Shown: in pieces, positions 11,832-46,115 of the stretch
Position numbering within the stretch: position 1 is the first letter of the stretch
Layout: each line of letters begins with the position of its first letter
Program-made: the position numbers and the translations under genes
The notes under the pieces: generated by a model
What the model was told of the DNA's origin: nothing
Database searches by the model: none
Seen by the model: the letters and a program-made list of their open reading frames with translations, nothing else
Origin: Gordonia jacobaea
GTDB lineage: Bacteria > Actinomycetota > Actinomycetes > Mycobacteriales > Mycobacteriaceae
DNA length: 64,000 bases
Assembly (NCBI RefSeq): GCF_001186365.1
Contig: NZ_LDTZ01000016.1
Span: 248,001-312,000, forward strand
Direction: 5' to 3'

Positions 11832-12265
11832 TCGGCACTCCTCTCCCATGTGATGAGCATCTGTACCGGTGGCGTGACCTGCGCACCACCGCATTCCGGA
11901 TCGCCAAAATGATCCGGATTCCGCAATGAGCGCAGACTACATGTCGAATGTCTACCTGATCTACTTTTCCGCAGATCGATTTCGATGCGCGAGAAAGTTA
12001 CCCCGTTCAGGGGACATGTGTAACGACGAGGTGGAGATGAGCGATCAAAGTCGGGAAAGCATTTTTGTCACCTAATCCGCCCTGGTAATCAATTCTGAAC
12101 TACTTCCTTCGATTGAATTGTCTAGCGTTTCCTTCCGTAGAAATACACCTTGGGTGAGACTAGGTCGGGTAAATGGCGGGATCGGTTTCCAGGGCAGGCC
12201 GGCCGCAGCCAGCCGGCGTAGCCAGCGGGGATCGGGGCGAGTCGGTACAACCCGGGAGTGAGGAT
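11832..12265. promoter_or_regulatory. Divergent control region between exporter and NRPS operons
   Basis: This stretch has no gene and is more AT-rich than its surroundings. TCCGGATC (11895-11902) and GATCCGGA (11911-11918) form a perfect 8+8 inverted repeat with an 8-base spacer, about 65-85 bases upstream of the exporter ATG. CCCCGTTCAGGGGAC (12001-12015) matches a second copy upstream of the small LuxR-type gene at 51464-51478. I do not see a convincing -35/-10 pair for the NRPS gene and no good IdeR/iron box. The NRPS could start translation anywhere from 12173, but GTGAGGAT before 12266 is the best ribosome-binding site. Confidence 0.5.
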
Positions 12266-18200: not shown

Positions 18201-20272
18201 CGGCCACGCGACTGGCCGGCTACATGGTGCCGCACACGCTCGTCGTCGTAGACGAGTTCCGGCTCACCACATCGGGGAAAATCGATCGAAAGTCGTTGCC
18301 TGCAGTCGACTTCGGGACCGCGGCCCCATATCGCCAGCCGGGGTCGCAGTTGGAGATGGTGGTCGCAGGTGTTTTCGGCCAGGTACTCGGGCTCGAACGC
18401 GTCTCCGCCGATGCCGACTTCTTCCATCTCGGCGGCAGTTCACTCTCGGCGACCAAGGTCACGGCACGTCTGGCGGCGCTTCTCGACCGCCAGGTGCCGG
18501 TGAAGCTGCTCTTCGAGCGTCCGACGGTCTCCGCGCTCGCCGCGGCATTGACGTCGGGGCCGACGGGGCAGGGCATGCCTGCGCTCCACGCGCGCAGCCG
18601 CACCGAACTCGTGCACGTGTCCGGCATGCAGCGGGGCCTCTGGCTGATCAATCGAGCCGAACCCGAGTCCGCCGCGTACAACGTCGCGATGGCTTTGCGG
18701 CTATCCGGCGACCTCGACGTCCCGGCGCTCACCCGTGCCACGATCGACCTCGGGAGGCGTCACGAGGCTCTGCGCACCGTCTATCCGATGATCAATGGTG
18801 AACCGGTGCAGGTGATCATGCCCGCCGACGCGCTCGACAACGATGTGCTGCTCGAGGTACGCGACGTCGAGGGCTCCCTGAGCGCTGAGATCGCCGAGAT
18901 CACCGGTGCAGGCTTCGACATCACCGTGCGGCCACCGGTCCGGGCGGTGCTGCTCAGGGTCTCCCCGGACGAGCACGTCCTCGTCTTCGTGGTCCATCAC
19001 ATCAGCGCCGACGGTGCATCGATGATGCCTCTCGCGCGTGATCTGATGGCGGCGTACGCCGCACGGCACGGTGGGGCAGAACCCGCATGGAAGCCCCTGG
19101 CCGTGCAGTATGCCGACTTCAGCATGTGGCTCTCCGAACGACTCGCGGTGGTCGACGACGGGGTGTCCGAGCAGGAGCGCCAACTCTCCTATTGGCAGGA
19201 GCGTTTGTCGGGCGTGCCGGAAATCCTCGAGCTTCCTGCGAGTAAACCGCGCCCGAAGACACCGAGTTTCGAAGGCGCCGCAGTCGAATTCGAGATCCCG
19301 TCCGACGTGGTCGCCAAGCTCGAGGAGACCTCCCGCAAGCACCACACCACCCAGTTCATGGTCACGCACGCGGTGTTCGCGGTGCTGCTCGCGCGGCTCT
19401 CGGGCCGAGATGACATCGTGATCGGCACACCGTTCGCGGGTCGCGGTGAGCCGTTGCTCGAAGACGTCGTCGGAATGTTCGTCAACACCCTTGCGCTGCG
19501 TACCCGGGTCGACGGCGGCGAGCGGTTCCTCGAGTTGCTCGATCGTGTCCGCGGCGACGACCTCGCCGATATGTCGCATGCCGCAATCCCTTTCGACGAG
19601 ATCGTCGCGCGGATCATGTCGCGGCCGCCGACCGCGCACAACCCGATCTTCCAGGTGATGCTGGCGTTCCAGAACGTCGAATTCCCGGTGCTCCGCCTCG
19701 ACGGACTCACCGTCGAGCCCGTGCGCGAGGAACTGACATCTGCGAAGGTCGACCTGGCGCTCACCTTCTTCCCGAACGATCCGGAACGGGAGGCTCGCGG
19801 CGGGGCGCTGCGTGCCCAGTTCACCTACGCCACAGATCTTTTCGACGAGGAGACGGTGAAGCGGATGGCCGCCCGATACGTCCGGCTGCTCGCCGAACTG
19901 GTCGACGACCCCGAGCGCGTCGTCGGCGACGCCAGCATGGCCATCGACTCCGATCAGGCCGATGATCCCGCCGAGGGTGATGAGCAGGCGTCGCTGTTCG
20001 ATCTGATCGCAGATGCCGTGACCTGCGATCCGGATGCGGCGATCCTGCCCGACGTCTGTGCGGTCAGCTTCGGTGATCTGTCGACGCACGTGTCGGCGCT
20101 GAGCGCGGTTGTGCCCGACGCTGATTCGGCACTGACGATGGCGCTCATGACGTTGGTTCCCGGACTGGCCACCGCTGGGCCCGCCGAGCTCGACGACGTC
20201 CTGAGTTCGTTGCACGCCCGCGCACACAGGGTCGCGGCGCGCGACAAATCCACCCCTATAGATCCCATCTAG
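12266..20272 (+). CDS. Nonribosomal peptide synthetase, modules 1-2 and condensation domain of module 3
   Basis: A 2668-residue NRPS read as C-A-PCP-C-A-PCP-C plus a terminal stub. C1 (HHIALDG near residue 152) starts LTAAQRGMWFAESLSP and resembles EntF/DhbF starter condensation domains. A1 (FDVSVWE near 661) has pocket residues DVWHFSLVDK, the code of serine-activating EntF. PCP1 carries LGGDSL near 1006. C2 has HHIAGDG (about 1192). A2 (FDASIFE, about 1722) reads DAFVIVLIWK; substrate unknown. PCP2 has LGGSSL (about 2055) and C3 HHISADG (about 2244). The last 95 residues (about 2575-2668) look like the start of an A domain that breaks off. The next NRPS gene starts 21 bases later. No epimerase or thioesterase is present. 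The start was set by the ribosome-binding site; an in-frame ATG at 12173 is the alternative. Confidence 0.95.
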   Translation: MSQQHTADDRREAGLGGPLLELTAAQRGMWFAESLSPDYSVTVAQYIDIRDDDRPLDEELLRQLIVDAGRETEMAFTRIVEVDGVPMQVVDQSIDNHLQVVDLRGEADPVARARDWMNSDYRGNMDLLSDPLVVGALLRVADDRIFWYVRAHHIALDGYAALTVVYEILNRYNAAVTGAEYVSKPGAKLDELVADDQKYLSGTRRQADREYWADRVHDLPERVTLAQQSAAAPLSPCNAVAATEMDSARQQTIERLAASLNSSPAVLLSAGFSAFLARMAGTDDVVLSLPVTGRATAKIKRAAGMVSNMLPVRFRDVRRLSMRGLVDQAQLEFTGVLRHQRYRFEDIRLDAGLQDANTASFGPIVNIMFFDKPVEMAGATVDYHILASGILEDLRLNLYQASPTARIGVDLHGNPNLYDEAELRGHLERFLAFLDRVLAHLDTPIGDLDLLLPGERADLLDLGVGPLRPLPTPSAHLLDGFEAAVGETPTATAVEFGDHQWTYGEFDELRWRFAATLRMAGVGQGDHVVVSLDRGPAQVVAIYAVLTLGVAYVPVDPTQPDQRRSLIADAVGARVVIDDEYLANVGFGPGGFDDGRIYDGARKTVGGGATAAYVIFTSGSTGVPKGVQVSHEAVINRLAWMQDNYGLATDDVVLYKTPFTFDVSVWELLWALGRGARLVIAKPGGHRDPAYLRELIISRGITVLHFVPSMLDVYTEVLANEGHSTLLPATVRFVFTSGEALPRSLAERVIDGSHADLVNLYGPTEAAVDVTECTVGSDDGPVPIGTPVANTRVHVLDGALAQVPVGVAGELYLAGIQLADGYVGRPGLTSERFVADPFGPDGTRMYRTGDLVRWADDGSLHYLGRTDFQIKIRGQRVEPGEIEAVLDAMPGVDASAVVPRTDLAAGPVLVAYVRSESTDVTESAALAWCRGHLPSHMVPVAAMRLDEFPLNPSGKLDRKRLPVPELNRSVEYVAPRTRVELALSSLITELLGVERIGLRDNIFALGGDSLMAARLVSRARSERDLQVDLTTVFSAVDIGGIADLTEFGGEPEHVVLRRFEREAVIPLSHAQTRLWFVNRMDPGAATYNMPGAVRLGHEVDVDALHASIEFLVERHETLRTRFGSHLGEPVQEILTTAEAMEFLDTEVFDAVDRLDELIAAEAARGFDLVREIPFRIRILRDREGYVVVTVLHHIAGDGFSLQPLIRDLVVGYTHLRDGTKPDLEPLEVQYADFAIWQRTLLGELESPTERAAEGLSFWQTELADMADLLMLPTDRPRPHLPTGAGGYIDAVIDAELATSIRGLARDRGVTPFTVVHAALAIVLSRWAEVDEVSIGTAVAGRDEPATAELVGMFVNTVVLRTAVSSVDTVADLLERAHETKTRAVRHADIPFEWIVDAVSPERSASHTPLFQVALTMHPGHATTLHHFDESARLIDARVPAAKFDLSITVTDQADSGGYDLELSYAADIFERRTAERVAAQLDLVLRTMVAAPARSVGTIDIVADEDRAELISGVEALAEPALLRDLFRAGAEQADPHSLAIAGTSEITWSMLVARSNQLARELVSMGVGPGDIVAICVPRSHHSVLSMMAVAASGAAFVSIDPALPAARIAEILADSEAAVGLSVEESASRLPDAVDWLVIGHEDTEFRLAGHSGAPLGDAELARTPHLDDLAYLIYTSGSTGRPKAAALSHRGLSNVVANQQSILRVSSESRVLHVASPSFDASIFEILMALGQGARLVISPAGVFGGDELATLMRDQSVTHAVMTPSALGTIEPAAVPKLRRVISVGEACPPDLMRRWARAGRRFHNLYGPTEVSIWATAAGPMTEHDEVSIGLSIPGVGAIVLDRALRPVPTGVPGELYLRGVQLARGYHRRSDLTASRFVADPFAPGERMYRTGDRVIRTMRGDLRYIGRTDFQLKIRGLRIEPGEVEAAIVDHPLVTDAVCLGVPAPNGDDVLVAYATLAEGASADPAHILEHAATRLAGYMVPHTLVVVDEFRLTTSGKIDRKSLPAVDFGTAAPYRQPGSQLEMVVAGVFGQVLGLERVSADADFFHLGGSSLSATKVTARLAALLDRQVPVKLLFERPTVSALAAALTSGPTGQGMPALHARSRTELVHVSGMQRGLWLINRAEPESAAYNVAMALRLSGDLDVPALTRATIDLGRRHEALRTVYPMINGEPVQVIMPADALDNDVLLEVRDVEGSLSAEIAEITGAGFDITVRPPVRAVLLRVSPDEHVLVFVVHHISADGASMMPLARDLMAAYAARHGGAEPAWKPLAVQYADFSMWLSERLAVVDDGVSEQERQLSYWQERLSGVPEILELPASKPRPKTPSFEGAAVEFEIPSDVVAKLEETSRKHHTTQFMVTHAVFAVLLARLSGRDDIVIGTPFAGRGEPLLEDVVGMFVNTLALRTRVDGGERFLELLDRVRGDDLADMSHAAIPFDEIVARIMSRPPTAHNPIFQVMLAFQNVEFPVLRLDGLTVEPVREELTSAKVDLALTFFPNDPEREARGGALRAQFTYATDLFDEETVKRMAARYVRLLAELVDDPERVVGDASMAIDSDQADDPAEGDEQASLFDLIADAVTCDPDAAILPDVCAVSFGDLSTHVSALSAVVPDADSALTMALMTLVPGLATAGPAELDDVLSSLHARAHRVAARDKSTPIDPI

Positions 20273-20293
20273 CCGGAAGGTCTCCACACAGCC

Positions 20294-23200
20294 GTGACGG
20301 GAATCGACGCGAACGCACTAGAAACATGCTCGGGGTGGGGTCGCCGTCCCGGTATACGTGATCTGATCGGGGTAACCGCACGGACCGAACCGCATGCCCT
20401 CGCACTGTCCACACCGGCGACGCTCACGTTCGGCGAGCTCGAAGCGCGCGTTGCGCCGATGGCCACGGTGTTCGCCGGACGCGGTATCGACCCCGATGCC
20501 GCCGTCGCAGCCACCATCGCACCATTGGTGACCACGCCCGGCGCAGACCCGGCCGCTTCGGCCGCCCTCACGCAGCAGCATCTCGCGCAGATACGTGCGG
20601 CGGCCGTCGACACACTCGGTGTGGACGACTGGCAATCGTTGCCCGGTCTCTTTCGACTCGCGGTGCGGCGCTTCGCCGGTCGGCTCGCCGTCACCGACAC
20701 CTCCGGTGCCGAGCTGACCTATCGGGAGCTCGACGAGCTCTCCGACGCCGTGGCCGTGGGACTGGTCGCCTCAGGTGTGGAACAGGGCTCGGTCGTCGGA
20801 CTCGCGACCGCCCGCAGCGTCGACGTCATGGTGGCGATCCTCGGCATCCTGAAGGTCGGCGCGACCTACCTCCCGCTTGACACCTCGCACCCGGCAGATC
20901 GCCTGCAGATGGTCGTCGACGACGCGGCTCCGGTCGTGGTGATCTCGGGCGAGGGCGGCCACGCGACGCTCGACCTCCTCGGTGTCGCGCTGACCACGAC
21001 GGCCGAGCTCTCCGACCGTGCGCGTCACGCGTCGGGGGAATTGCCTGCCGCACTCGACCCGCGGCTGGCTGCCTACGCCATCTTCACCTCCGGTTCCACC
21101 GGTAGGCCGAAGGGCGTCGTCGTCGAACATCGGTCGGTGGTGGCGTTGTTGGCTGCAGCCCAACAGCATTACGGCTTCACCGAATACGACGTGTGGACGA
21201 TGTTCCACTCGTACGCGTTCGACGTCTCGGTGTTCGAGATGTGGGGACCGCTGCTGTTCGGCGGACGTCTGCTCGTCGTGGATTACCTGACAACGCGCAG
21301 CCCGGCGGAGTTCGCAGCGCTGCTCGCGGCGCACTCGGTGACCGTGGTGTCGCAGACGCCGTCGGCGTTCTATCAGCTCGCCGCCGCCGTGCGGCCGCGT
21401 GGCGAGACGTCTGTCGCTTCCGACGAGTTGTCATCGTCGGTGCGGTACATGGTTTTCGCCGGTGAGGCGCTGGACTTCGCGCAGGTGACACGTTGGTACG
21501 CCGATCGCATGGCCGGCGCTGGACGCCCGGGGCCGGTGCTGGTGAACATGTACGGCATCACCGAGACGACGGTGCACTCGACGTTCCGTGCGCTCGATCC
21601 CGAATTCGTCGCGACGGCAAAGGGATCGGACGTCGGTGACGGGTTACCGGGCCTCGAGATCCACGTGCTCGACGAGCACCTGCGGCCGGTGCCAGACGGA
21701 ACGCCCGGCGAGATCTACGTCAGTGGCACGCAGGTGACGCGGGGGTACCTCGGCCGCCCCGAATTGACGGGCGTGCGCTTCGTCGCGGACCCGTTCGCCG
21801 GCGACGGGCGACGGATGTACCGCAGCGGCGACGTCGCGATCCGTCACGGCGACACTCTCGAATATCTCGGTCGATCCGATGCCCAGATCAAGTTGCGTGG
21901 CTTCAGGATTGAACTCGGCGAGGTCGAAGCGGCGCTGCTCTCCACCCCGGGGGTGGATGCTGTCGCCGTTGCGGTGACGACGCGTGAGAACGGAATCGAA
22001 CAACTCGTCGGTTACGCCGTCCTCGGCGAGGGCGCCGAGGTATCTCCGACGGCGATCAGGTCCAATGCCGCGGCGCTGCTGCCGGACTACATGGTTCCCG
22101 ACGTGGTGATGCTGCTCGACGGTCTGCCGCTCACGGTGAACGGCAAGTTGGATCGTCGTGCGCTTCCAGAACCCGAGATCGTGGTCGACTCGGAGTACGT
22201 CGCCCCCGGTACGGAGACCGAGAAGATGCTCGCCGAGATCGTCGCGAACGTACTCGATCTCGAACGGGTCAGCGTCGCCGACTCGCTGTTCGATCTCGGC
22301 GGCAATTCGCTTGCCGCTGCCCGCATCGTCGGCCGCGCTTCCGACGCCCTCGGGGTAGACCTCTCCGTGCGCGACGTGTTCGACGCCCCGACGGTCCGCG
22401 GTCTCGCCGAACTGTCGGCTCAGCGTGCCGCCGGTCTGCCCGCGGTGGTGGCACTGCCGCGCCCGCGGCGAATTCCGTTGTCGTTTGCGCAGAGTCGCAT
22501 GTGGTTCATCAATCAGTTCGACACGTCGTTGCCGACGTACAACATTCCGGCGCTGCTGCGGCTGGAGGGCGATCTCGATGTGCGTGCCTTACGCGCGGCA
22601 CTGAGTGACGTGATCGAGCGCCACGAGGTGCTGCGGACGACGTTCCCCGCCGTCGACGACGAACCGGTTCAGGTGATCGGCGGTGTCGACGAGATCGATG
22701 AGCGACTCGAGTGGCGCGACGTCGACTCGTGGTCGGAGCTGCAGACCGTCGCGATGACGGGTTTCGACGTGACCACGGGCTGGCCGGTGCGTGCCGCTCT
22801 GTGGGCGCAGGCGCCCGGACAGTGGGTGTTCGCATTGGTGATGCACCATATCGCCTCGGACGGCGAGTCGTTGCGTCCGCTCGTCACGGATCTCATCACG
22901 GCCTACGTTGCCAGAACCGCCGGGGCCGCACCGGAATTCGCGCCTCTGGAAATCCAGTTCGCCGACTACGCCATCTGGCAGCACGACGTTCTCGGTTCCG
23001 CGGACGACACGGACTCGATCATCGGACGCCAACTCGGCTACTGGTCACGACAGTTGCGCGGACTGCCGGACGTGCTCGACCTGCCCGCAGACCGACCGCG
23101 CCCGACCGTGGCGTCGATGCGTGGTGCGCGTGCGTCATTCGACGTCCCGGCAACCGTGGCCGAGAGTGTGGTCGAGTTGGCACGCGCGTCCGGGGTCACT

Positions 23201-26200
23201 CCGTTCATGGTCGTGCATGGGGCGTTGAGCGCGTTGCTCGCCCGACTGTCGGGGACGGATGACATCGCGATCTCGACCCCGATCGCGGGTCGCGGGCAGC
23301 CAGTGCTCGATCCGCTGGTCGGAATGTTCGTCAACACGCTCGTCCTGCGTGTGGGCGTCGACCCCACATTGACCTTCACCCAGCTCCTCGATCGCGTGCG
23401 CGGCGTCGACCTCGAAGGCTTCGCGCATGCCGACCTCCCCTTCGAGTCCGTCGTCGAGGCGCTCGACCCGCCACGTTCGGAATCCTTTGCGCCACTGAGC
23501 CAGGTCATGCTCACATTCGATCAGAACGCGATGCCCGAGTTCGCCGCACGCGGTATCGCCGCGGCACGGCTTCCGGCCCTTGCCGTGGAGCCGGTCGACG
23601 TCGACGAGATTCCGGCCAAGGTCGATCTGACGTTCGGGTTGAGGGACACCGGTAACGGTTGGTCTGGCGAACTCGTCTACGCCACAGACATTTTCGATGC
23701 CGATACCGCAGAGTCGATTGCCCACCGATTCGTTCGACTGCTCACCGAGCTGACCGAACAACCGGCGCTGCCGGTAGGCCGCTCACGACTGCTCGACGAT
23801 CAAGAGTACGACGAGATGTCGTCGATCTTCGGCAGTGAGGCGGCAACACCGCGGTTGCTGGCGGATGTCCTGGCCGATGTGGCCACACGGTACGCCGACT
23901 GCGCCGCGGTCACCGACGGGTCGGGCGCCGTCGCGACCTACGCTGAACTCGACGCCCGGTCGGATGCCTGCGCGCGGTGGCTCATCTCGCAGGGTGTGGG
24001 CACCGAATCGCTGGTGGCACTGGCTATTCGACGCTCGGTGGACCTTCTCACCGCGTTGTGGGCGGTGACAAAGGTCGGTGCGGGGTACGTACCCATCGAC
24101 CCTGACTACCCGGCCGACCGCATCACCTACATGCTGAGCGATTCGGGCGTCTCCCTCGGTCTGACGACATCGGAGTTGCGCGAGCAGTTGCCCTCCTCGG
24201 TGACGTGGTCGTTCGTCTCAGACGTCGTCACCGTTCGGCGGGGTCCCGCTGAGCCCGCCTCGGCGCCTCTGAGGTCGGACGAGCTGGTGCGTCCACGTCA
24301 CCTCGACGCCCTCGCCTACGTGATCTACACGTCCGGGTCGACCGGTCGGCCCAAAGGTGTTGCCGTCACCTACCGAGGTATCCACAACTACGCAGCAGAC
24401 CTGAGCCGCTACGGGGCGGAAGCAGGGTCTGTGGTGATGGGCTATTCGTCTCCGAGCTTCGACGCGTCGATCCTCGAGTGGCTGATCGCCTCCACCGGGG
24501 GAGCGACGCTCGCATATCGGCCCGAGGGCGCGATCGGCGGGGAATTGCTCGAAGAGTTCATGCGCGAGGCCGGGGTAACGCATGCGTTCATGACGCCGAC
24601 CGTTGCCGCGACGATCAATCCCGCAGCCGTCCCGGGTTTGCAGCTCCTGGCATCGGGGGGTGAGGCGCTGCCGCAGCGACTCGTCGATCGGTGGGCCGAC
24701 GAGGTTGCCTTCTTCAATGCCTACGGCCCGACCGAGACGTCGGTCGCCGTCGCCAACAGCCGACGCCGCGTCGGCGACCCGGTGCGCATCGGCGGACCCA
24801 TCGGGGGTGTGGGATTGGTGGTCCTCGACGACGCGTTGCAGCCCGTTCCCGTGAATGTTCCCGGCGAGCTCTACGTCCGTGGTGTCGCGCTGGCCCGCGG
24901 CTATCTCGATCGAGCAGGCCTGACTGCTGCGCGCTATGTGGCCGATCCCTTCGGCGGTGGCGGCGACCGCCTCTACCGCACCGGAGATGTGGTGCGATGG
25001 CGCCGCACCGAGGACGGCGAGCTGGAGCTCGAGTATTCCGGGCGTAGCGATGACCAGGTGAAGCTGCGAGGTCTGCGCATCGAATTGGGCGAGGTCGAAG
25101 CCGTCTTGTCGTCGTATCCGGATGTCTCGGAGGCGGTCGTGATCGGCGTGGGTGGTGCCGTGGCCACGGCGCTCGCAGGATACGTGGTGGCAGTTGCCGG
25201 ACTCGATCTGTCCGCGGTGCGCGCACACCTCGAACAGCAATTGCCCGCGCATATGGTGCCTGCCACCATCACCGTCCTCGACGAGCTTCCGCTGACACCC
25301 GTCGGCAAACTCGACAAACGCGCACTCCCGGCACCGGAGCTCCCCGACGGCGACGACTACGTCGAGCCGGCGTCGACCGCAGAACGTCAGTTGGCCGCAG
25401 TGGTCGCAGGGATGCTGGGGATCGACCGGGTCAGTGTCACCGACTCGTTCTTCGCGCTCGGCGGAGACTCGATCATGTCGATCCGACTGGCGTCGGCCGC
25501 CCGTGACGCGGGCTTGGCCCTGTCGCCGCGAGACATCTTCGAACACAAGACGATTCGAGCAATGGCTCGCGCAGGCAGTGACGACCGGGCGAGCGTGCCC
25601 CTCCTGCCCGAGCCGGACGGCGGTGGTTCCGGCGAGGTGCCGCTGAGTCCGGTGGCCGCGTGGTTGCTCGAGACCGCCGGGGAGCCCGCGCGGTTGCGCG
25701 ACTTCTCGCAGTCCGTGGTGATGATCGCTCCTCCAGATCTGAGTCCGGCCATGCTCGCGGCCGTCCTCGACGCCGTCGTGGCGGTCCACCCGATGCTCGC
25801 ACTGCAGCTCCGACACACCGACGACGGTTGGAGTCAGGTCGCTGGATCACCCGACTCGCGCGCAGAGGTGCGCGCCGTACATGCCGACATCAGCACTCGG
25901 TCAACAGAGTTCGAGGCGCTGATCCGTGCTGAGCACGCGGCGGCCCTCGGCAAGCTCGACCCCGTTGCGGGACGGGTGATCGCGGCAGTCCTCGTGTCCG
26001 GAAACGACGGCGCGCGTGTCATTCTCGCCATCCACCATCTCTCGATCGACGCCGTGTCGTGGCCGGTCGTCGTCGAAGACGTCATCACCGCATGGGGTGC
26101 GATGGACTCCGACGCACAGAAGGCGTTGCGGTCAGAGGTGACCTCCGCCCGAGCCTGGCACAACGCGCTGGCAACCACGGTGCGTGCCGACGACGAGCTC

Positions 26201-35200: not shown

Positions 35201-38200
35201 ACCCTGATCGCACCCGGGGTCGAAGACAGCCCCGTCACGAACGACGAGCGCCGTGCGCCGAAGAGACTCGACGACCTCGCATATCTCATCTACACCTCCG
35301 GATCGACCGGTCGCCCCAAGGCTGTCGGCGTCGCTGAGCGCGGCATCGCCAATCTCGTCGACGCACTCGCGGAGATCTCCGGGACCTCGGCAACCGCATC
35401 CGACGTCCGGGTGCTGCATGTCGCATCGCCCAGCTTCGACGCGTCGGTACTCGAAATGCTCTGGGGCATAGGCCTCGGCCACACCCTGGTGATCGCCGGC
35501 GCCGACGAGTACGCCTCGGACGCGCTCGGCCGGGTCCTCGAGCGCGGCGGTGTCACCGACGCGATCATCACGCCTACGGTGCTCGCCACCGTCGACCCGC
35601 GTTTCGGTGCGAGCCTGCGAAATCTCGCATCGGCGGGAGAAGCGTGCCCACCCGAACTCATGGACAGGTGGGCGTCGGCTCATCCCGATCTCAGGACGCT
35701 CAACCTCTACGGGCCGTCGGAGACGACGGTGTGGGCAACCGCGGCCGTGATCGAGCGCGGGCAGCCGGTGACCATCGGACGCCCGATTCGCGGGTTCGCC
35801 GCGTATGTTCTCGATTCGCGACTGCACCAAGTGCCGCAGGGCGTGACGGGGGCGCTGTATCTCAGCGCCGACGACTCTCTCGCGCGTGGCTACCTCGGAC
35901 GTCCCGGACTGACCGCGAAGGCGTTCGTCGCGAATCCGTTCAGCTCGACACCGGGCGCGCGCCTGTACGCGACGGGCGATCTCGTCAGGGTCACTGCCAC
36001 AGGCGAATTGGAGTATGCCGGCCGCATCGACACACAGGTCAAGTTGCGCGGGCTGAGGATCGAACTCGGCGAGATCGAGACGGCACTCACCTCGCATCCC
36101 GACGTCGACGCTGCGGTGGTGATCGGCGTCGGCGGTGCCGTCGCGAGCGCGCTGGCAGGGTACGTGGTGGCATCACCCGACGTCGATGTCGCAGCCATCC
36201 GCGACCACATCGCCACGCGGCTTCCCTCGCACATGGTTCCCGCGAGTCTGACCGTGCTCGATGCTCTACCGCACACGCCCGGAGGCAAGGTCGACACCGC
36301 CGCGCTGCCCGAGCCCGCCGAAGGGGCACAGCAGCACAGCAGCGTCGCACCGGCGACCGACGCGGAGGAGCGTGTCGCCGCCGTCTACGCCGAGGTGCTC
36401 GGTAGCGAGACCATCGGCGTCACGGAGAGCTACTTCGACCTCGGCGGCAACTCGTTGTCGGCCACTCGCGTTGCTGCGCGCATCTCCGAACTCTTCGACG
36501 CCGACATCACCGTGCGCGACGTCTTCGAGCAGCCAACCGTGCGCGGTCTCGCCGCGCTTGCGGCGCAGCGTGAGCCGGGCCTCGCCCCGGTCGTGCCGGT
36601 CGTGCCCCGACCGGCTCGCATTCCGCTGTCGTTCGCGCAGGCCAGGATGTGGGTCATCAACCAGTTCGATCCCACGTTGAGCACCTACAACGTCCCGGTG
36701 CTGCTTCGGCTCAGCGGCGACGTCGACGTGGCTGCGCTGCGGGCAGCCGTCGTCGACGTCGTCGAGCGTCACGAGGTGCTGCGGACGGTGTTCCCCGCGG
36801 TGGACGGCGTTCCGGTGCAGATCATCGGCGGCGTCGACACCGTGTCGGACCGCCTCGATTGGGGCGTCGTCGACTCCGCCGCACAGCTCGAGGCCGCGGT
36901 GACCGACGGCTTCGACGTCAGTGTCGAGGAGCCGCTGCGGTGCTGCGTCTGGCGGTCCGCGCAGGACGAGTATGTGTTCGCGCTGGTGGCCCACCACATC
37001 GCTGCCGACGGCGAGTCGATGGGCCCGTTGGTCAGCGACATGATGGCGGCGTATGCGGCGCGCGCGACAGGCTCGGCACCGCACTTCGCGCCGCTGCCGG
37101 TGCAGTTCGCCGATGTGGCCATCTGGCAGCACGAGGTGCTCGGGCGGCCGGACGACCCGGCGTCGGTGGTCGCGCGTCAACTGTCCTACTGGGAGGACGC
37201 GCTGGCAGGCGTACCGGATGTGGTGGAACTGCCGACCGACCGTCCGCGACCCCTCGTCGCCTCCGAGCGGGGTGCGCAGGTCGGGTTTGCGATACCGGCC
37301 GCCATCGCAGGCCGGGTGTCGGCGGTGGCACGCGAGCACGGTGTGACACCGTTCATGGTCGTGCACGCGACACTCGCTGCGCTCCTGTCCCGACTGGCCG
37401 CCACGACCGATGTCACGGTGGGAACCCCGATTGCCGGTCGCGGACAACGTGATCTCGACGCATTGGTCGGCATGTTCGTCAACACCCTCGTACTCCGCAG
37501 CGACGTGGACCCCGGCGCATCGTTCGCCGATCTACTCGAGTCTGTGCGGACCACCGACCTCGACGCGTTCGCCCACGCCGATGTTCCGTTCGAAGCGGTG
37601 ATCGATCGTCTCGACCCCGTGCGTTCGGAAGCGTTCGCGCCCCTCACCCAGGTGCTGCTCACGTTCCATCAGTCGGTGCTGCCGGAGTTCGCGGCGGAAC
37701 TGAACGCCACACATGTTGCCGGAGTGCAGATCTCGCCCATCGCGCCGCAGCACACCCCGGCCAAGGTCGACCTCACCTTCGGTATCGCCGACGCTCCCGA
37801 CGGTCAGCCGTGGACGGCGCAGATCGTCTATGCCACAGACCTTTTCGATGGCTCGACGGTTGACACGATCGCCGACCGGTTCGTCCGGATGCTCGACGGC
37901 TGCACCGCCGATCCGAGCCTGCCGATCGGCGACGTCGTGCTTCTGTCGGATGACGAGAAGGCGACGCTCGCCGCACTTCCGGCGCCGATAACGAACATGC
38001 CGCGCGCGGACCTGAGCCTCGTCGACCTGTTCGCCGAATCTGTACGCGCACACCACGACCGGCCAGCAGTCAGCGCGGCCGGACAGTCGCTCGACTACGG
38101 CGAACTCGACCGCCGGTCGACGGCAGTGGCCGCGGCACTGGTCGAGCGCGGTGTCGTCGCGGGAGATCTCGTCGGTGTCGCAACGGCACGCACCGTCGAC

Positions 38201-41200
38201 CTCGCCGTCGCCATTCTGGGTGTCCTCAAAGCGGGTGCGGGCTATCTCCCGTTGGATACGACGAACCCGGTGCGACGCCTGACCTACATCGTCGCCGACG
38301 CCGCCATCGACCTGATCATCACCGACGCCGCGACCGTCGATCACGAGCTGTTCGGGCAGTTGCCCGACGCGGTCGCGGCCGTCGACGTCGACGACCTGGT
38401 GGGCGAGGGGACAGGTCTGCCCACGCCGACGCCGGTCATCAAACCTGATTCCGGCGCGTACGTCATCTACACCTCCGGATCCACCGGCAAGCCCAAGGGC
38501 GTGCAGATCACTCACCGCGACGTGCTCACCCTGATCGACACCACCGCGACCGACTTCGAGTTCGTCCCGACCGACGTCTGGACCATGTTCCACTCCTATG
38601 CGTTCGACTTCTCGGTGTGGGAACTGTGGGGCCCGTTCGCGTCGGGTGCGCGTCTGGTCATCGTCGACCGCGACGTCGCACGCGACCCGGACGCATTCGT
38701 CGAACTCCTCGGCCGCGAAGGGGTGACGGTGCTGAGCCAGACGCCGTCCGCCTTCTACCAACTCATCGACGCTCGACGGCGCGTCGGACCTGATCTCGCC
38801 CTGCGCTACATCGTGTTCGGCGGCGAGGCGCTCGCATTCGATCAGGTCGACCGCTGGTTCACTGAAAACCCCTCGGACACAGCCCAACTGGTCAACATGT
38901 ACGGCATCACCGAGACCACGGTGCATGTCAGCATCCGGCCCATGGACCGAGCATCGGTCCTCGACGGCGACAGCTCGCTGATCGGTAGGCCGTTGAGCTC
39001 GTTGGGCATTCACATCCTCGACTCGCGACTGCATCCGGTCCCGCCGGGCGTCGTCGGCGAAATCTATGTCACGGGTGGCCAATTGGCGCGGGGTTACCGG
39101 GGACGGTCGGAGCTCACCGCCACGCGGTTCGTCGCCGACCCCTTCGATCCGGGCGGCGAACGCATGTACCGCACCGGCGACCTCGCCCGCCGCATCGGCG
39201 ACGACATCGAGTATCTCGGGCGCGGTGATGCGCAGGTGCAGCTGCGTGGCTTCCGCATCGAGTACGGCGAGGTCGAGGCCGCATTGGCCGCTGCCCCCGG
39301 CATCAACGCGGCCGCGGCAACGGTCGTCGACATCCCCGGACGTGGCGAGCAACTCGTCGGCTATGTGGTCGCAGACCGGATCGACTCGATAGACGTGGAC
39401 GAGGTCCGCGACTCGGTTGCGCGCGCGGTGCCGACGTACATGATTCCCGGAATCATCATGCCGATCGATCGTCTGCCGCTGACCGCGAACGGCAAACTGG
39501 ATCGACAAGCACTGCCGCAGCCCACGATCGACGGCGTCGGCGGCGACGACGTCGTGCCGGCGACGCCCGCCGAGGAGACTCTGGCCGGCCTCGTGTCCGG
39601 TGTGCTCGGGGTCGAAAAGGTCGGCATGACCGACTCCTTCTTCGCGCTCGGCGGTGACTCGATCCTCGCCATCACGCTCTCGTCGGCCGCACGTGCAGCA
39701 GGCCTTCCGATCTCCCCGCGCGACATCTTCGAGCACAAGTCGGTGCGCGCTCTTGCCGTGGCAGCAGCAGCCGATGCACAACGACTCCCGATGCTCGCCG
39801 AGTTGCCGGACGGGCCGACGGGTGCCGTTCCGGTCTCGCCGATTGCTGCGTGGATGATCGAATTGTCCGACGAGCCAGACGATTTCGCCGACTTCTCGCA
39901 GTCGATGACACTCATCGCGCCCGAAGGTCTCGACACCGAGTCATTGCGGCGACTGCTCACGACGGTGGTCTCGGCACACCCGATGCTGTCGTCGACACTG
40001 CGGTGCGTCGACGGTGAATGGGTGGCCACAGCAGGATCCGACGCCACACCGAGCGTCGTCGGCGAGCGGGTCGATGCAGCCGGCGGCAGCCCGGAATTCG
40101 CTGCCGCGGTGCGGGCGGCACATGCTCGCGCACTGCGTGAGCTGTCACCGGCCGACGGGGTCCTGGTGTCCGCCGCACACGTCGTGGGAGCCGACGGTGC
40201 GCGGGTGGTGCTCGCGATCAATCACCTCGGCGTGGACGCGGTCTCGTGGCCGATCCTCATCGAGGATCTGATCACGGCGTGGGCGGCGTCGGAAAGCGGT
40301 GGCGATGCGACGTTGCGTCCCGAGGTCACCTCGGCACGGGCGTGGCACTCCGCGCTGGCCGAACGCACACCCGATCACGTGGGCGAGGTCGACTACTGGC
40401 TGGCGCGCGTCGACCGCGAGCCCACCGATCTCGGCGTCACCGTCGACCGCGACCGAGATCGATTCGCCACGCTCTCCACGGTGACCGTCGCCGTCGGCGC
40501 CGCGGACACGGAGGCGCTACTCACCAGCGTCCCCGAACAGTTCGGTGGGCATGTCAACGACGCTCTGCTCGGTGCGTTGGCGCGCGCGATCAGGTCGTGG
40601 CAGCGTGCTCGCGGAATCGTCGACGATGCTCCGGTATCGATCCTGGTCGAAGGTCACGGACGCTACGAGGACGTGCTCGCCCACGGCTCGTCGCCGAGCA
40701 TCGCTGACCTCTCCCGCACCGTCGGATGGTTCACGTCGATCGCCCCGATCGTGGTCGACCCGGGCGATGACGTCGTGCACGCCGTGAAGGCTGCCAAGGA
40801 GGAACGCCTCGGTCAGCCCGAGCACGGTCTGGGATTCGGCCTGCTGCGCAACAACCTCTCGCGCAACGGTGACGCACGGTTGGCGCAGACCGCGTTGCCC
40901 GGTATCGCGTTCAACTACCTCGGAGCCGGCGTCCGCGGCAGCGACGACGCGGCGGTGTTGCCGTTCACCGCCGATCCCGCGGCACCCGCGCTGCCCGCGT
41001 CGGTGTCGGGTCGCATGGTTGCGATGAACACGCTCTCCGTCAACGTCGGCACCGCGACGACCGACAGCGGCCGCGAATTGTCGGCCGACCTGCTGTTCCC
41101 GAGTGGCGCATTCTCTCGGTCGGACATCGAAGACCTCGGTGATCGATGGGCGGCCGAACTCGCCGCGGTCACCGTCGCGGCGCGACAGCCGGGCGGACCG

Positions 41201-44200
41201 GGACTATCGCCCTCGGACGTGCCCGGTACCGGCGTCACCCAGGACGACCTCGACGAGCTCGCGCATCGTTTCGGCTCGGCCGACGTCTGGCCGATGACGC
41301 CACTCCAAAGGGGCCTGCACGTCCAATCAGAGCTCGCGGGCGACGACGCGGTCGATGTCTACGTGGTGCAGGGAATCCTCCACCTCGGCGGGGACATCGA
41401 CGTCGAGCGGCTTCGTCGTGCGACAGAAGCACTCTTCGATCATCACAGGGCGCTGCGCTCGGCGTTCGTGCGTTGCAGGAGCGGCGCCGTGGTCACGGTG
41501 ATCCCGGAGTCGGTCTCCGTGCCGTGGGAGGTCGTCGAGGTACCGGCGTCGTCGGCCGGTGATGACATGTCGGCTGATGACAAGTCGGCGGTGGAGCGCT
41601 ACGCCGACGTGGAGCGACGTCGTGGATTCGATCTCGAGTCCGCCCCGCTGATGCGCTTCACGCTCTTCCGCCACGGCGACGACGCGCACCTGATCGTCAC
41701 CAATCACCACATTCTGATCGACGGATGGTCGGGTCCGCTCGTCCTCGCCGACCTGCTCGCGCTCTACGCGACCGGGTCGACCTACACCGGGACACAACCC
41801 GGTGGTGGCGACTTCGGCGATCATGCGCGCCGCATCGCGCTCGCCGATCCCGACGCCGCTCGGGCAGCGTGGCGAGGCGTGCTCGCACCGGTCGACGGTC
41901 CGACCCTCGTGGCTCCCGGCGTGTCCGGTGCTCGCGAGATGCTTCCGCGCGATCACTCCGCGCTGCTCGACGAGCAGATCGTCGACGGAATCGAGCGGCT
42001 CGCCAGGGCGCAGGGCGCAACCGTGGCCACGGTGCTGCAACTGGCCTGGGCTGTGTTGTTGTCTCGACTGACCGGGAACCGGGTCGTCACATTCGGTGAG
42101 ACCACCTCGGGCCGCCCCGCAGATCTCGAAGGCGTGGCGTCGATGGTCGGCTTGTTCATCAACACCGTGCCCGCCGTCGTCGACGTCGACCCGGACGCAC
42201 CCGTCGCGGACGTGCTCGCGCGTCTGCAGCAGGCGAAGGTGACCGTGCTCGACCACCAGCACATCGGACTGACCGAGCTGATGGCGCTGGCCGACGTGCC
42301 GCTGCTGTTCGACACCCTCACCGTGCACGAGTCCTACCCGGTGGACGGCGACTCGCTCGCGACCGCCGACCCCGCACAGACCGGGGGACTGCAGATCCTC
42401 GACTTCGATGGCACCGACGCGACCCACTACCCGCTCAACATGGCGACGGCTCCGTTGCCGGGCGGGCAGATCTCGCTCACGCTCAAGTATCTGCCTGCGG
42501 CATTCGACGATCACCAGGTAGAGGTGTTCAGCACCGCGCTGGTCGAGATCCTGCGCCAGATGGCCGCTGACCCGACACGCCTCACCGCCGACATCACCCT
42601 CGTCACCGAACAACAGAGGGCACAGTTCACGCCGGTCGACGGTGGTGAAGGGGAACGACCGCGGCTGCTCGCCGACCTCTTCGCCGAAGCCGCGGCGGCA
42701 TACGGACCGCGCACAGCGGTCAGCGACGCTGCCGGTTCGACGCTGACCTACGCCGAACTTGACGCCGAGTCCACTCGCCTCGCGCGGTGGCTGATCGCAC
42801 GTGGGATCGGGACCGAGTCGCTCGTCGGTCTGGCGATCGGACGCTCCACGGAATTGCTCACCGCGATCTGGGCGGTCGCCAAGACCGGCGCGGGGTATGT
42901 GCCGATCGATCCCGACTATCCGGCGGAACGAGTCGCGACGATGGTCGAGGATTCCGGCGCCGTACTGGGCCTGACCCGCTCGCGCTCGCTGCCGACGCGG
43001 CCGGGACTCGACTGGGTCGACCTCGACGACCCTGCCGTCTCGCGCGCAATCTCGTCACAGGACACCACCTCGCTCGCCGCGAACGAGCTACTGAAGCCGG
43101 TGCGACCGGACAACACGGCCTACGTGATCTACACCTCAGGATCGACCGGAAGACCGAAGGGTGTGAGCGTCACGCACTCCGGTCTGGCCAACTACGCCGC
43201 AGCGGAATCGTCCCGCTTCCCGCAGGTCGAGAAGCCGGTTGTGCTCGGCTTCGCGTCGCCGAGCTTCGACGCCTCGGTGCTGGAGTACCTCCTCGCCGCA
43301 GCGTTCGGCGGCGAGATCGCATACCGCCCCGCGGACGCGGTCGGTGGCGAGGCACTGGAGCAATTCATGCGAGAACGTGCCGTGACTCATACGTTCCTCA
43401 CCCCGACCGTGTTGTCGACCATGGATCCGGCTGCACTGCCGGATCTGGCGGGGGTCGCCGTGGGCGGCGAAGCCGTGCCGCCGTCGATCGTCGACGGTTG
43501 GTCGAGCCACCTCAGCCTGCACAACATCTATGGTCCGACCGAGACGACGATCAGTGTGACGTTCGCGCGGCCGACGAGGCCGGGTGCCAGAGTGCTTCTC
43601 GGCGGTCCCATCAACGGCACAGGGTTCGAAGTCCTCGACGCCCGCCTGCATCCCGTACCCGAGGGAGTCTCCGGAGAGCTCTACATCACCGGACTACCCC
43701 TCTCTCGCGGATATCTCGATCGGCCGGGACTGACGTCGGAGCGGTTTGTCGCGCACCCGAACGGCACCGCGGGCGAACGCATGTACCGCACAGGCGACGT
43801 CGTCCGTTGGCAGCGCGACGAGACCGGTGAACTCTCACTCGAGTACGCGGGCCGAAGCGACGCTCAGGTCAAGCTTCGCGGTCTACGAATAGAACTGGGT
43901 GAGATCGAGGCGGCCCTGGCGGCTCATCCGACGGTCGAATCGGCCGTCGTCGTCGGAGTCGGGGGAGCGGTGGCGACAGCGCTCGCCGGGTACGTCGTGC
44001 TCGACGATTCCCCGGGCCCCGATGATTCCCTCAGTGATCCCGAGGAATCCGTGTCGACGACGCTGCGGCACTTTCTCTCGCAACGGTTGCCCGCCCATAT
44101 GGTGCCGTCGAGCATCACCGTGCTCGATGCCTTTCCGCTCACGGCCGTCGGCAAACTCGACAAGCGCGCGCTTCCCGAACCGCAGCGCCCGAGCGGGGTT

Positions 44201-45298
44201 CGTGTGGACCCGGTCGGGCCGATCGAGGAATCGGTGGCCGAGGTGTTCGGCGAGATCCTCGGCGTCGAGAACGTCGGCGCGACCGACAGCTTCTTCGACC
44301 TCGGCGGCGATTCGTTGTCGGCGACCCGTGCTCTCGGTCTCTTGCGGCGCGTGCACGGCGACCATCTCGAACTCGGCTGGTTGTTCAACGATCCGACGCC
44401 GCGCGGGATCGCGGCCCGAATCGAAGGCGCCACCGCGCCGGCAGGAGAGGTTCTCATCGAGCTCGCGCGCGGCTCACAGCCTCCGCTGTTCTGTGTGCAC
44501 CCGGCGGGCGGACTCGCGTGGTTCTATGGCGGGTTCGTGCCCTACCTGGCCGATCGGCCGGTGTACGGCCTGCAGGATCCGCACGCCGTGTCCGGAGAAC
44601 CGTTTGCCTCGTCTGTCGAAGAGCTGGCGCAGAGGTACCTCGCCGAGATCCGACGTGTGCAGCCGGAAGGGCCGTACAACCTGCTCGGATGGTCGCTCGG
44701 CGGATACGTCGCCTACGCGATGGCCACGGCGCTGCGGGAAGCAGGCGAGGAGGTCGACTTCCTCGGCGTGATGGACTCGGCGCCGGTGTCCGTCGACCAG
44801 GTGAACGGGTCTGAATCGGCCGAGCGGGTGCGTCCCGGCGGCGAGTTCGTCGGCGATTTGCTGGGGGGCTGGCGCGACCTATTCGATCTCGGGGAAGATA
44901 TTGAGGCGAGCTCTGCCGATGAGGTCGCAGCGATCGTGCGGGACAAGATCGCATCGCTGGGACTGCTGCGTGATGAGCAGGTGCAGTGGGTGATGGACAG
45001 TTTCGCGGGTGGTGAGCAGTTGGTGGAGCAATTCCGCCCCGACCGGTTCGACGGCTCGCTGCTGGTGTTCACGGCGACACGCGACAAGGAAGACCCATCC
45101 GCTGTCGCGCGGTCGTGGGAACCACACGTCGACGGAGACGTTGTCAACGTAGACGTCGACGCCGACCACCTCGGCATGGCGAATGCGGACGCACTCGCAG
45201 TCATCGGGCCGGTCCTGGCTCTGCGACTGGCGGGCAACGCGCACGAGCAACACACAACGAACATCGAAGACGATGGTGAGGAAAGGAAGCGACAATGA
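20294..45298 (+). CDS. Giant nonribosomal peptide synthetase, modules 3 (A-PCP) to 9, with terminal thioesterase
   Basis: An 8334-residue protein. An A-like stub (1-100) precedes A3. Approximate landmarks and pocket codes by my alignment: A3 309 (DVFSVAMVHK); PCP3 667; C4 850; A4 1389 (DALFAGAVAK); PCP4 1722; E4 1913; C5 2399 (NHHILFDG, D-donor type); A5 2924 (DVPHFSLVEK); PCP5 3263; C6 3446; A6 3981 (DVPHLSLVDK); PCP6 4320; C7 4503; A7 5048 (DALIAALVWK); PCP7 5383; C8 5566; A8 6105 (DFWSVGMVHK, threonine-like); PCP8 6452; E8 6643; C9 7136 (D-donor type); A9 7658 (DALFAGIISK); PCP9 8003; TE with GWSLGG, Ser about 8134, and DHLGM His about 8292. The E domains sit after modules 4 and 8 and each is followed by the matching condensation type. 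The start is GTG with GGAAGG upstream. MbtH overlaps the stop. Modules 5 and 6 hold near-identical cassettes. Confidence 0.95.
28457..30195 (+). repeat. A5-PCP5 cassette, copy 1 of a near-identical intragenic repeat
   Basis: This stretch matches 31631-33366 at an offset of 3174 bases, then 3171 after one codon is lost in copy 2. The matching blocks are 28457-28977, 29033-29232 and 29458-30195. I count about 11 mismatches in the first 521 bases and 8 or 9 in the last 738. Third codon positions are mostly G or T (runs such as ggtgtgggtgtgggg), unlike the C/G-ending codons on both sides. The unmatched patches 28978-29032 and 29233-29457 have host-like codons. Confidence 0.93.
31631..33366 (+). 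repeat. A6-PCP6 cassette, copy 2 of a near-identical intragenic repeat
   Basis: This is the partner of 28457-30195. It encodes most of A6 and all of PCP6. The blocks are 31631-32151, 32207-32406 and 32629-33366. The two copies are separated by the C6 domain (30196-31630), which has ordinary codon use. Because the offset is a multiple of three, recombination between copies would delete or add exactly one A-PCP-C unit in frame. Confidence 0.93.
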
Positions 45299-45507
45299 CG
45301 AATCCCTTTGACGACGAGAACGGACGATTCTTCGTCCTGGTCAACCACGAGAACCAGCACTCCCTGTGGCCGACATTCGCCGACATCCCCGACGGATGGA
45401 CCAAGGTGTTCGGAGAGGACAGCCGGGCCGCGTGCCTCGAGTACGTCGAGCAGAACTGGACCGACCTGCGCCCGAAGAGCCTCATCGAAGCGATGGAGGC
45501 CGATTAG
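45295..45507 (+). CDS. MbtH-like NRPS chaperone
   Basis: A 70-residue MbtH-family protein. The conserved core is [10 protein letters not shown], then PDGW, and the C-terminal [14 protein letters not shown]. MbtH proteins bind the N-terminal part of A domains and raise their solubility and activity. Its ATG overlaps the TGA of the giant NRPS (ATGA), and the purine run gaggaaaggaag lies just upstream, so it is coupled to that gene. It is close in sequence to the second MbtH at 56418-56663, and cross-talk between the two assembly lines is possible. Confidence 0.96.
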
Positions 45508-45610
45508 TCGGCGCGAAGGGCAGACGCCCCTGTAGAGGCTGCGACACGACGACGTAATCGCCGACCGGTGACACGCATATAACGCTTTCACACCAGTCAC
45601 ATCAGCAACA

Positions 45611-45639
45611 TTGGATACCTGCTGACGCCTCAGTAGCAT
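45611..45639 (+). promoter_or_regulatory. Candidate promoter of the 117-residue protein
   Basis: TTGGAT (45611-45616) and TAGCAT (45634-45639) are spaced by 17 bases in the AT-richer gap between the MbtH gene and the next gene. If used, it gives a leader of about 115 nt and uncouples the small gene from the NRPS operon. The rest of 45508-45761 holds no gene. Motif match only. Confidence 0.35.
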
Positions 45640-45761
45640 CGGGTTTTGTAGAAACACGAAATCCGAGTGGAATTCGTCACATAGTACGGTGGTTCGTCTT
45701 CCGAACAAGTCGCTTAGGTGCATTCTGTTCGAAAGGATCGACGCCATCGTTGGGAGGCAAG

Positions 45762-46115
45762 ATGGCTGAGGTCGGAGATGTCGACGCGTGGGGTGCTCGA
45801 GGTCGAATGATGACGGAATTGCGTAACGACGTGAAGCGGCGCGCTGAGGCGACGCCGTGGATGACGGCTGTTCGCTTGGGGGGCGATTCGGCGACGTACG
45901 CCGAGCTTGCGGAGAGCATGTCGTCGTACGAAAAGGTGATGAAGCGAAACGGTATGTCGTCGGAGGCCGCGATCTACGCGGCACTGCTTCACTCGCTCCC
46001 GTCGATTGCCACGGTCAGCGATCCCGTCAAGCAGGGCGCGATGATCGATCAGGTTCTCGCCTGGCTCGGTCGCAATCTGCCGTTCTCCGGTGGTTCGCTC
46101 CGGGCCGTGGGCTGA
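45762..46115 (+). CDS. Small protein with an A-domain-like N-terminal segment, function unknown
   Basis: A 117-residue protein with a strong ribosome-binding site (GGGAGG, six bases before the ATG). I do not recognise it as a named family. Residues about 25-60 (TELRNDVKRRAEATPWM, TYAELAESM) look like the first strand-helix segment of an NRPS adenylation domain, and are followed by a helical tail (AAIYAALLHSLP). The same two-part layout appears at the C-terminus of the upstream NRPS (19990-20272) and the N-terminus of the giant one (20294-20620). No AMP-binding motifs are present, so it cannot adenylate by itself. Possible roles are a docking partner or regulator of the assembly line; this is inference from similarity by eye. 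Confidence 0.7.
   Translation: MAEVGDVDAWGARGRMMTELRNDVKRRAEATPWMTAVRLGGDSATYAELAESMSSYEKVMKRNGMSSEAAIYAALLHSLPSIATVSDPVKQGAMIDQVLAWLGRNLPFSGGSLRAVG

Follow-up and report, generated by a model that had tools for sequence, protein, structure and literature searches.

Introduction

In the available portion of PMC9113145, none of the docking elements named for nonribosomal peptide synthetases (NRPSs) lies at a C|A junction: COM elements are assigned to E/C, PAX elements to PCP/C, and SLiM/beta-hairpin pairs to PCP/C or PCP/Cy. The junction between a condensation (C) and an adenylation (A) domain has been opened by engineering, in the SYNZIP type S NRPSs, where the C-A linker is split and the subunits are joined by a zipper pair (PMC8362031 and PMC10443035, each in part). 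An NRPS split artificially at this linker gave no detectable product without zippers, or with a zipper on subunit 1 only, according to the accessible part of PMC8362031.

Here we describe a short domain, which we call a stub, that occurs three times in a 64,000-nt window of the Gordonia jacobaea genome (assembly GCF_001186365.1, contig NZ_LDTZ01000016.1, positions 248,001 to 312,000 of the forward strand): at the C-terminus of one NRPS (the C-side stub), at the N-terminus of the next (the N-side stub), and as a freestanding protein encoded behind them (the free, or F-type, stub). The stubs constitute a real, conserved and apparently undescribed domain family; the literature, as far as our limited library covers it, describes no C|A docking domain of this kind. 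We propose with moderate confidence that the stub is a truncated A-domain N-lobe that carries a distinct helical tail and has been recruited to form pairs where a C domain meets an A domain.

Architecture of the split module

Module 3 is split over two proteins, with C3 on NRPS1 and A3-T3 on NRPS2. The first-pass annotation of the window had placed two stubs exactly at this C3/A3 break, and that is what we found: C3 and a stub end NRPS1, and a stub followed by a full A domain opens NRPS2. The relevant features, in window coordinates, are as follows.

12173..20272, + strand: NRPS1, 2699 residues, with three C and two A domains and the stub at its end (Pfam)
18611..19957, + strand: terminal condensation domain C3 of NRPS1 (Pfam Condensation, residues 2147-2595)
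18995-19015, + strand: HHxxxDG motif of C3 (motif match)
19988..20242, + strand: core of the C-side stub at the C-terminus of NRPS1 (family profile); the NRPS1 stop codon is at 20270-20272
20294..20617, + strand: N-side stub at the N-terminus of NRPS2, beginning 21 nt past the NRPS1 stop
20657..21751, + strand: complete adenylation domain A3, directly behind the N-side stub (PF00501 match)
20294..45298, + strand: NRPS2, 8334 residues, with seven A domains and a terminal thioesterase (Pfam Thioesterase, E 4e-34)
45295..45507, + strand: mbtH-like gene, behind NRPS2 and ahead of the free stub gene (Pfam MbtH, E 4.8e-30)
45762..46115, + strand: freestanding stub protein (F type), 117 residues from the ATG at 45762, which GGAGG precedes

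In the family alignment, conservation of the free protein begins only at about 45807/45810, and its true start may differ from the ATG at 45762.

Because the break separates a C domain from its A domain, some connector is to be expected there. The stubs share with COM, PAX and SLiM/beta-hairpin elements, as these are presented in the available portion of PMC9113145, the presence of a matching element on each side of the break between subunits. They differ from these classes in lying at a C|A break and in being related folded domains of ~85-110 residues, rather than helices, a hand or a short linear motif. By the same partial account, COM elements lie at E/C, whereas the stub junction is C|A; SLiM/beta-hairpin systems have an upstream motif of <15 residues, whereas the upstream stub is a predicted folded domain of ~85 residues behind a C domain; and PAX is a three-helix bundle at PCP/C, whereas the stubs lie at C|A and carry a predicted beta hairpin. 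Their alpha-beta-beta-alpha-alpha-alpha order is reminiscent of known docking domains; none of these is among the fold matches listed, although a relation to them may still exist. The SYNZIP type S NRPSs are split at the same point as the stubs, but their connectors are engineered coiled coils, whereas the stubs are natural and of a different fold. Finally, MbtH-like proteins are small, NRPS-linked and encoded in the same place, the free stub gene adjoining mbtH, yet the free stub shows no sequence relation to them, with no match to any Pfam family up to E 10.

Homology of the three stubs

The claim that the three segments share one layout was borne out by profile comparison, and proved to describe something larger than first noted: one domain of about 85-110 residues is common to the NRPS1 C-terminus, the NRPS2 N-terminus and the free protein. 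We built family profiles from 43 C-side stubs, 41 N-side stubs and 24 free proteins, the last set later enlarged to 58. L132 was left out of the N-side set, its match being the A domain itself; L175-L177 were dropped as duplicates of other loci, and the second free protein of L174 duplicates L030. (Genomes, contigs, loci and genera are cited by our own handles, with the letters G, C, L and g.) With hhalign, C-side and N-side profiles matched at 97.5% (E 5e-12, 81 columns), free and C-side profiles at 96.7% (E 4e-10, or 1.9e-11 with the 58-sequence free profile), and free and N-side profiles at 89.3% (E 2e-6, or 2.5e-8 with the larger profile). The F-type protein is thus closer to the C-side than to the N-side stub. 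Judged from these profiles, the similarity is not chance.

The beginning of the stub aligns with the N-terminal subdomain of adenylation domains (ANL family, PF00501). Thirteen non-redundant A-domain starts matched 43 columns of the C-side profile (E 1.1e-8), 58 of the N-side profile (E 1.1e-9) and 66 of the free profile (E 8.5e-8). With this head cut away, the tails still aligned with one another: they scored 20.8, 33.9 and 21.4, and the highest scores among 60 column shuffles for each comparison were 12.1, 13.8 and 12.9. Profile comparison of the tails gave no alignment with the continuation of the A domain. Because only the heads match A domains and the tails match each other, the stub domain combines the start of an A domain with a distinct tail, in agreement with the first-pass description of an A-domain start followed by a helical tail unlike an A domain. 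At about 85-110 residues, of which only the start aligns, and with no later A motifs, the stub, by its motif content, cannot be a working A domain.

The window sequence alone would not have revealed this homology. No Pfam family was found for the C-side stub, and the N-side stub gave only AMP-binding (E 0.01) and EAD5 (E 0.16). A tree was built from 137 sequences: one in three of the Gordonia stubs, the 13 A-domain starts, and all stubs from other genera except L253, whose short open frames may be pieces of a broken NRPS. In it, 122 of the 124 stubs, all except two internal ones, were separated from A domains with support 0.935. The F-type proteins of other genera grouped with the Gordonia free proteins in one clade of five genera (support 0.995), and freestanding C-like proteins nested, with modest support, within the Gordonia C-side group.

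Stubs and free proteins across Gordonia

Both NRPS stubs were present in 56 of 59 Gordonia genomes, G012, G072 and G023 giving no match to either, and the free family had a short open frame in 56 as well (all but G012, G017 and G061); stub and free protein occurred together in 54. Since both are nearly universal in the genus, their co-occurrence says little, and it is location that is informative.

Among the Gordonia loci, which were selected for study because they matched the stub profiles, the C-side stub comes after a C domain, without an intervening A motif, in 64 of 66 (in the remaining pair the frame read shows no C motif), and an A domain follows the N-side stub in 69/69. The C-side stub ends NRPS1, with 0-68 residues beyond its trimmed core, and the next open frame begins with an N-side stub (that of L132 being unconfirmed). 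At L133 and L136 the C-side stub was found on profile recheck (2e-19 and 8e-18) after a single-sequence search gave none. In all, 65 Gordonia splits carry both stubs, so that matched elements occupy both termini of the adjoining subunits, and in 48 of these the NRPS2 start overlaps the NRPS1 stop by 4 nt. The splits at L131-L133, L135 and L136 (G022, G068, G067, G030, G011) represent another class of stubs at C|A splits, more divergent than the first and located in additional NRPS clusters of the genus.

The free gene likewise keeps its place. As the proposed link of the small protein to NRPS genes leads one to expect, 61 of the 68 free genes in Gordonia have mbtH upstream in the same orientation, the distance between the two is ~200-430 nt in 60, and thioesterase sequence lies upstream in 54; the upstream DNA read per gene was 0.6-2.7 kb, and short flanks may explain some of the misses. 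Some genomes (for example G031) have two such clusters, and separate stubs and a separate free gene belong to each.

Some further features of these loci were recorded. In the window a gap of ~250 nt (45508-45761) separates mbtH from the free gene. Two loci have a tandem mbtH-like pair between the NRPS and the free stub gene (L012, at 615-842 and 945-1205 as oriented; L022, at 546-833 and 926-1228), and L154 has a tandem pair of F-type small proteins behind a single mbtH. Very long uninterrupted NRPS frames stand behind the N-side stubs of L085 (19,979 codons stop to stop; G020:C1 near 3.97 Mb), L129 (18,521; G075:C52), L114 (18,315; G078:C46) and L111 (17,953; G031:C1). If they are single proteins, they exceed the kolossin synthetase, given as 1.81 MDa in the accessible part of PMC8362031.

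Selection and co-divergence

Both stubs are under purifying selection. Summed over 18 close pairs, among which some species recur, the ratio of nonsynonymous to synonymous substitution (dN/dS) was 0.20 for the C-side and 0.15 for the N-side stub, compared with 0.10 for the flanking C domain and 0.13 for the flanking A domain (17 pairs). The two stubs also co-diverge: given both flanking domains, their distances were correlated across 64 splits (partial Mantel r = 0.52, p = 0.001). This was the strongest of six partial correlations, the other five ranging from 0.06 to 0.35, four of them significant; the stubs against their own neighbouring domains gave 0.21 and 0.20, and the C-side stub against the A domain 0.06, which was not significant.

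These data bear on whether the stubs might simply be scars, that is, functionless remnants of A-domain starts left by the splitting or shuffling of module 3. A-domain regions recombine often, the stub head is derived from an A domain, and the stub-bearing proteins of two loci, L134 and L137, lie beside an apparently degenerate A region, all of which would suit such an origin. A scar is, however, at odds with the purifying selection and the co-divergence of the two sides, with the recurrence of the same junction type in 9 genera, with a shared tail that A domains do not have, and with the existence of freestanding copies, and we regard it as highly improbable.

Predicted structure

The expectation that the three segments fold alike was met by near-identical predicted secondary structure in all three: a helix, a two-strand hairpin and three further helices, the second hairpin strand of the N-side stub being only two residues long. 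The predicted local distance difference test score (pLDDT) exceeded 90 across most of each stub. Most of the top matches listed in a fold-library search were A domains, the tighter ones covering ~45 residues at ~1 Å, and the predicted stub fold resembles the A-domain N-lobe. The N-lobe is the part of the A domain that adjoins C in C-A didomains.

For the co-fold of the two NRPS stubs, 38 C rows and 36 N rows were offered. MAFFT stacked the N rows onto the homologous C-side stub, and a correctly aligned random subset was used, with 12 rows for each stub and a further 4 in which the two are paired, among them that of the window. This subset, one of 8 draws of its size, was kept for correct alignment only.

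Occurrence outside Gordonia

Matches at E<=1e-6 were found in 200 of 401 sampled genomes of the family and in 16 of 31 genera, a tally that is an upper estimate, some matches being head-only matches to A domains (for example G203, profile columns 2-40). The non-Gordonia loci read were chosen from the better matches. Among them, paired stubs mark C|A breaks in 13 splits of eight genera (g24, g25, g28, g29, g82, g85, g91 and g94), namely L193, L195, L196, L198-L200, L244, L250 and L256-L260. Eleven of these 13 stub pairs share 35-50% identity across 63-90 residues (E 1e-9 to 5e-24). At L257 the profile match of the N-side stub is weak, but this stub matches its C-side counterpart at 3e-11. The pair of L250 has 30% identity (E 0.003), and that of L244 gave no pairwise match. 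Over all 78 splits, the match between C-side and N-side stubs reached 1e-3 in 33 and extended past the head in 20, the two sides having diverged further in Gordonia than in the other genera.

Freestanding stubs also occur in other genera. In g83, g89 and g91, ten loci encode a small protein like the C-side stub, then MbtH, then a small F-type protein, and in nine of them the start of an NRPS follows downstream. At L244 (g85) the two small proteins are present with no mbtH between, and neither small protein of L241 matches any Pfam family. In the 401 genomes, with 12 candidates per genome scored, the open frames listed for small F-type proteins at E<=1e-7 all belonged to Gordonia, g83, g85, g89 or g91.

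In genus g83 an additional F-type gene, further diverged, is found ~37-40 kb away from the first (G358:C2:856599 and 896017), as seen likewise in G380, G431, G461, G394, G407, G420 and G451; it probably lies near the other end of the NRPS. At L253 (G501:C1:2032000-2040000; genome 79% complete), C-like and N-like stubs lie on short frames of 278 and 145 codons, possibly a broken NRPS. A search by order outside the family covered 298 sampled genomes, of which the best matches were listed; four of the better matches to the C-side stub profile (L261-L264) were read, and all were ordinary A domains.

Weighing stub-stub docking

Two homologous, co-diverging and selected domains occupy exactly the two termini that the break creates, and an unlike docking pair is for that reason the best reading of them. 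Several observations weigh against it, and we collect them here. In the tree, the node that separates all 124 stubs from A domains had a support of only 0.505. The fold-library matches to A domains were weak, with no Foldseek E <0.19. The N-side stub also correlated with the C domain (partial r 0.35, significant), and physical adjacency in the DNA may account for part of the co-divergence. In G072 and G023 (280 contigs) the free protein was present and no C-side stub was detected, and in G017 and G061 the split was present and no free protein was detected. The read-through model of the C-side and N-side stubs (16 sequences per stub) reached a predicted template modelling score (pTM) of 0.51, without confident mutual packing.

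That last result, in which each stub folds confidently whereas the pair does not pack confidently, would also suit a role as surface caps, with each stub folding back on its own neighbour to stabilize exposed surface, the C-side stub covering the A-facing side of C3 and the N-side stub the C-facing side of A3, and no pairing of stub with stub. A predicted fold like the A-domain N-lobe is what one might look for in such a cap. The co-divergence between the two stubs is nevertheless stronger than that of either stub with its adjoining domain, and we think caps improbable.

Further points against docking come from stubs that lack a partner. At L134 (G033:C4) and L137 (G026:C84) the upstream neighbour of the N-stub protein shows neither a C domain nor, even on profile recheck, a C-side stub at its end, which is A-like in sequence. 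Single internal stubs stand behind a C domain at L197, L241/L242, L243 and L255, in four genera (g25, g83, g91, g86), directly followed by an A-domain motif except in L255, which shows only the next T motif. Because such single stubs sit inside continuous proteins, docking of separate subunits cannot be the only role of the stub domain; the internal stubs may be fused former splits, or may indicate that their other half is provided in trans by a free stub.

The internal stubs are the main argument for reading the NRPS stub at the C-A linker as a receptor for accessory proteins, with subunit docking secondary. The free stubs would then act as MbtH does, binding in trans to assist or gate the adjacent A domain. 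Their position downstream of mbtH in most Gordonia cases, the rows flanking mbtH in g83, g89 and g91 and the well-supported F-type clade of five genera fit such a role, as do the N-side stubs of L134 and L137. On the other hand, six genera with split pairs (g24, g25, g28, g29, g82 and g94) have no small F-type protein listed at the above threshold, and the splits of G017 and G061 stand without a detected free protein; we hold a primary receptor role to be rather unlikely.

A related and tentative possibility is a switchable, trans-assembled C/A junction, in which C-side and N-side stubs pair and the freestanding MbtH-adjacent stubs bind the same site, gating which subunits come together. In genera with internal stubs, a freestanding C-type stub would supply the missing half of the pair in trans. 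In G033 and G026 (L134 and L137, with L115 and L130) two N-stub proteins stand behind a single C-stub protein, whose C-side stub might dock either; the first of the two is the protein with the A-like end. The arrangement possibly reflects alternative partners for the one C-side stub, or possibly a decaying subunit.

On balance we consider subunit docking by the stubs likely. The first-pass annotation had seen in them a conserved docking module with a free partner, and profiles, folds and location leave this the best reading, tempered by the co-fold, the N-side stubs without a C-side stub and the internal stubs of four other genera. None of the three outcomes that it had named as contrary was found: profile similarity, predicted folds and NRPS-adjacent homologues were all in line with it.

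Proposed mechanism and significance

In the docking model, the stubs of NRPS1 and NRPS2 would bind each other as an unlike (heterotypic) pair and so hold C3 against A3-T3, making the split module act as one. The free F-type protein may act in trans at the same C/A junction, alongside MbtH, as a cap, a competitor or an extra subunit, although this is less certain than the binding of stub to stub. Since it resembles the C-side stub more than the N-side stub, it could occupy the N-side stub.

A natural C|A connector would reveal the bacterial way of dividing a module between its C and A domains, where engineers have placed zippers (as set out in the available part of PMC8362031). The 65 Gordonia splits and the 13 others are ready natural pairs for the study of binding, specificity and swapping, and the free stub may form, in addition to MbtH, another class of small proteins that partner NRPSs.

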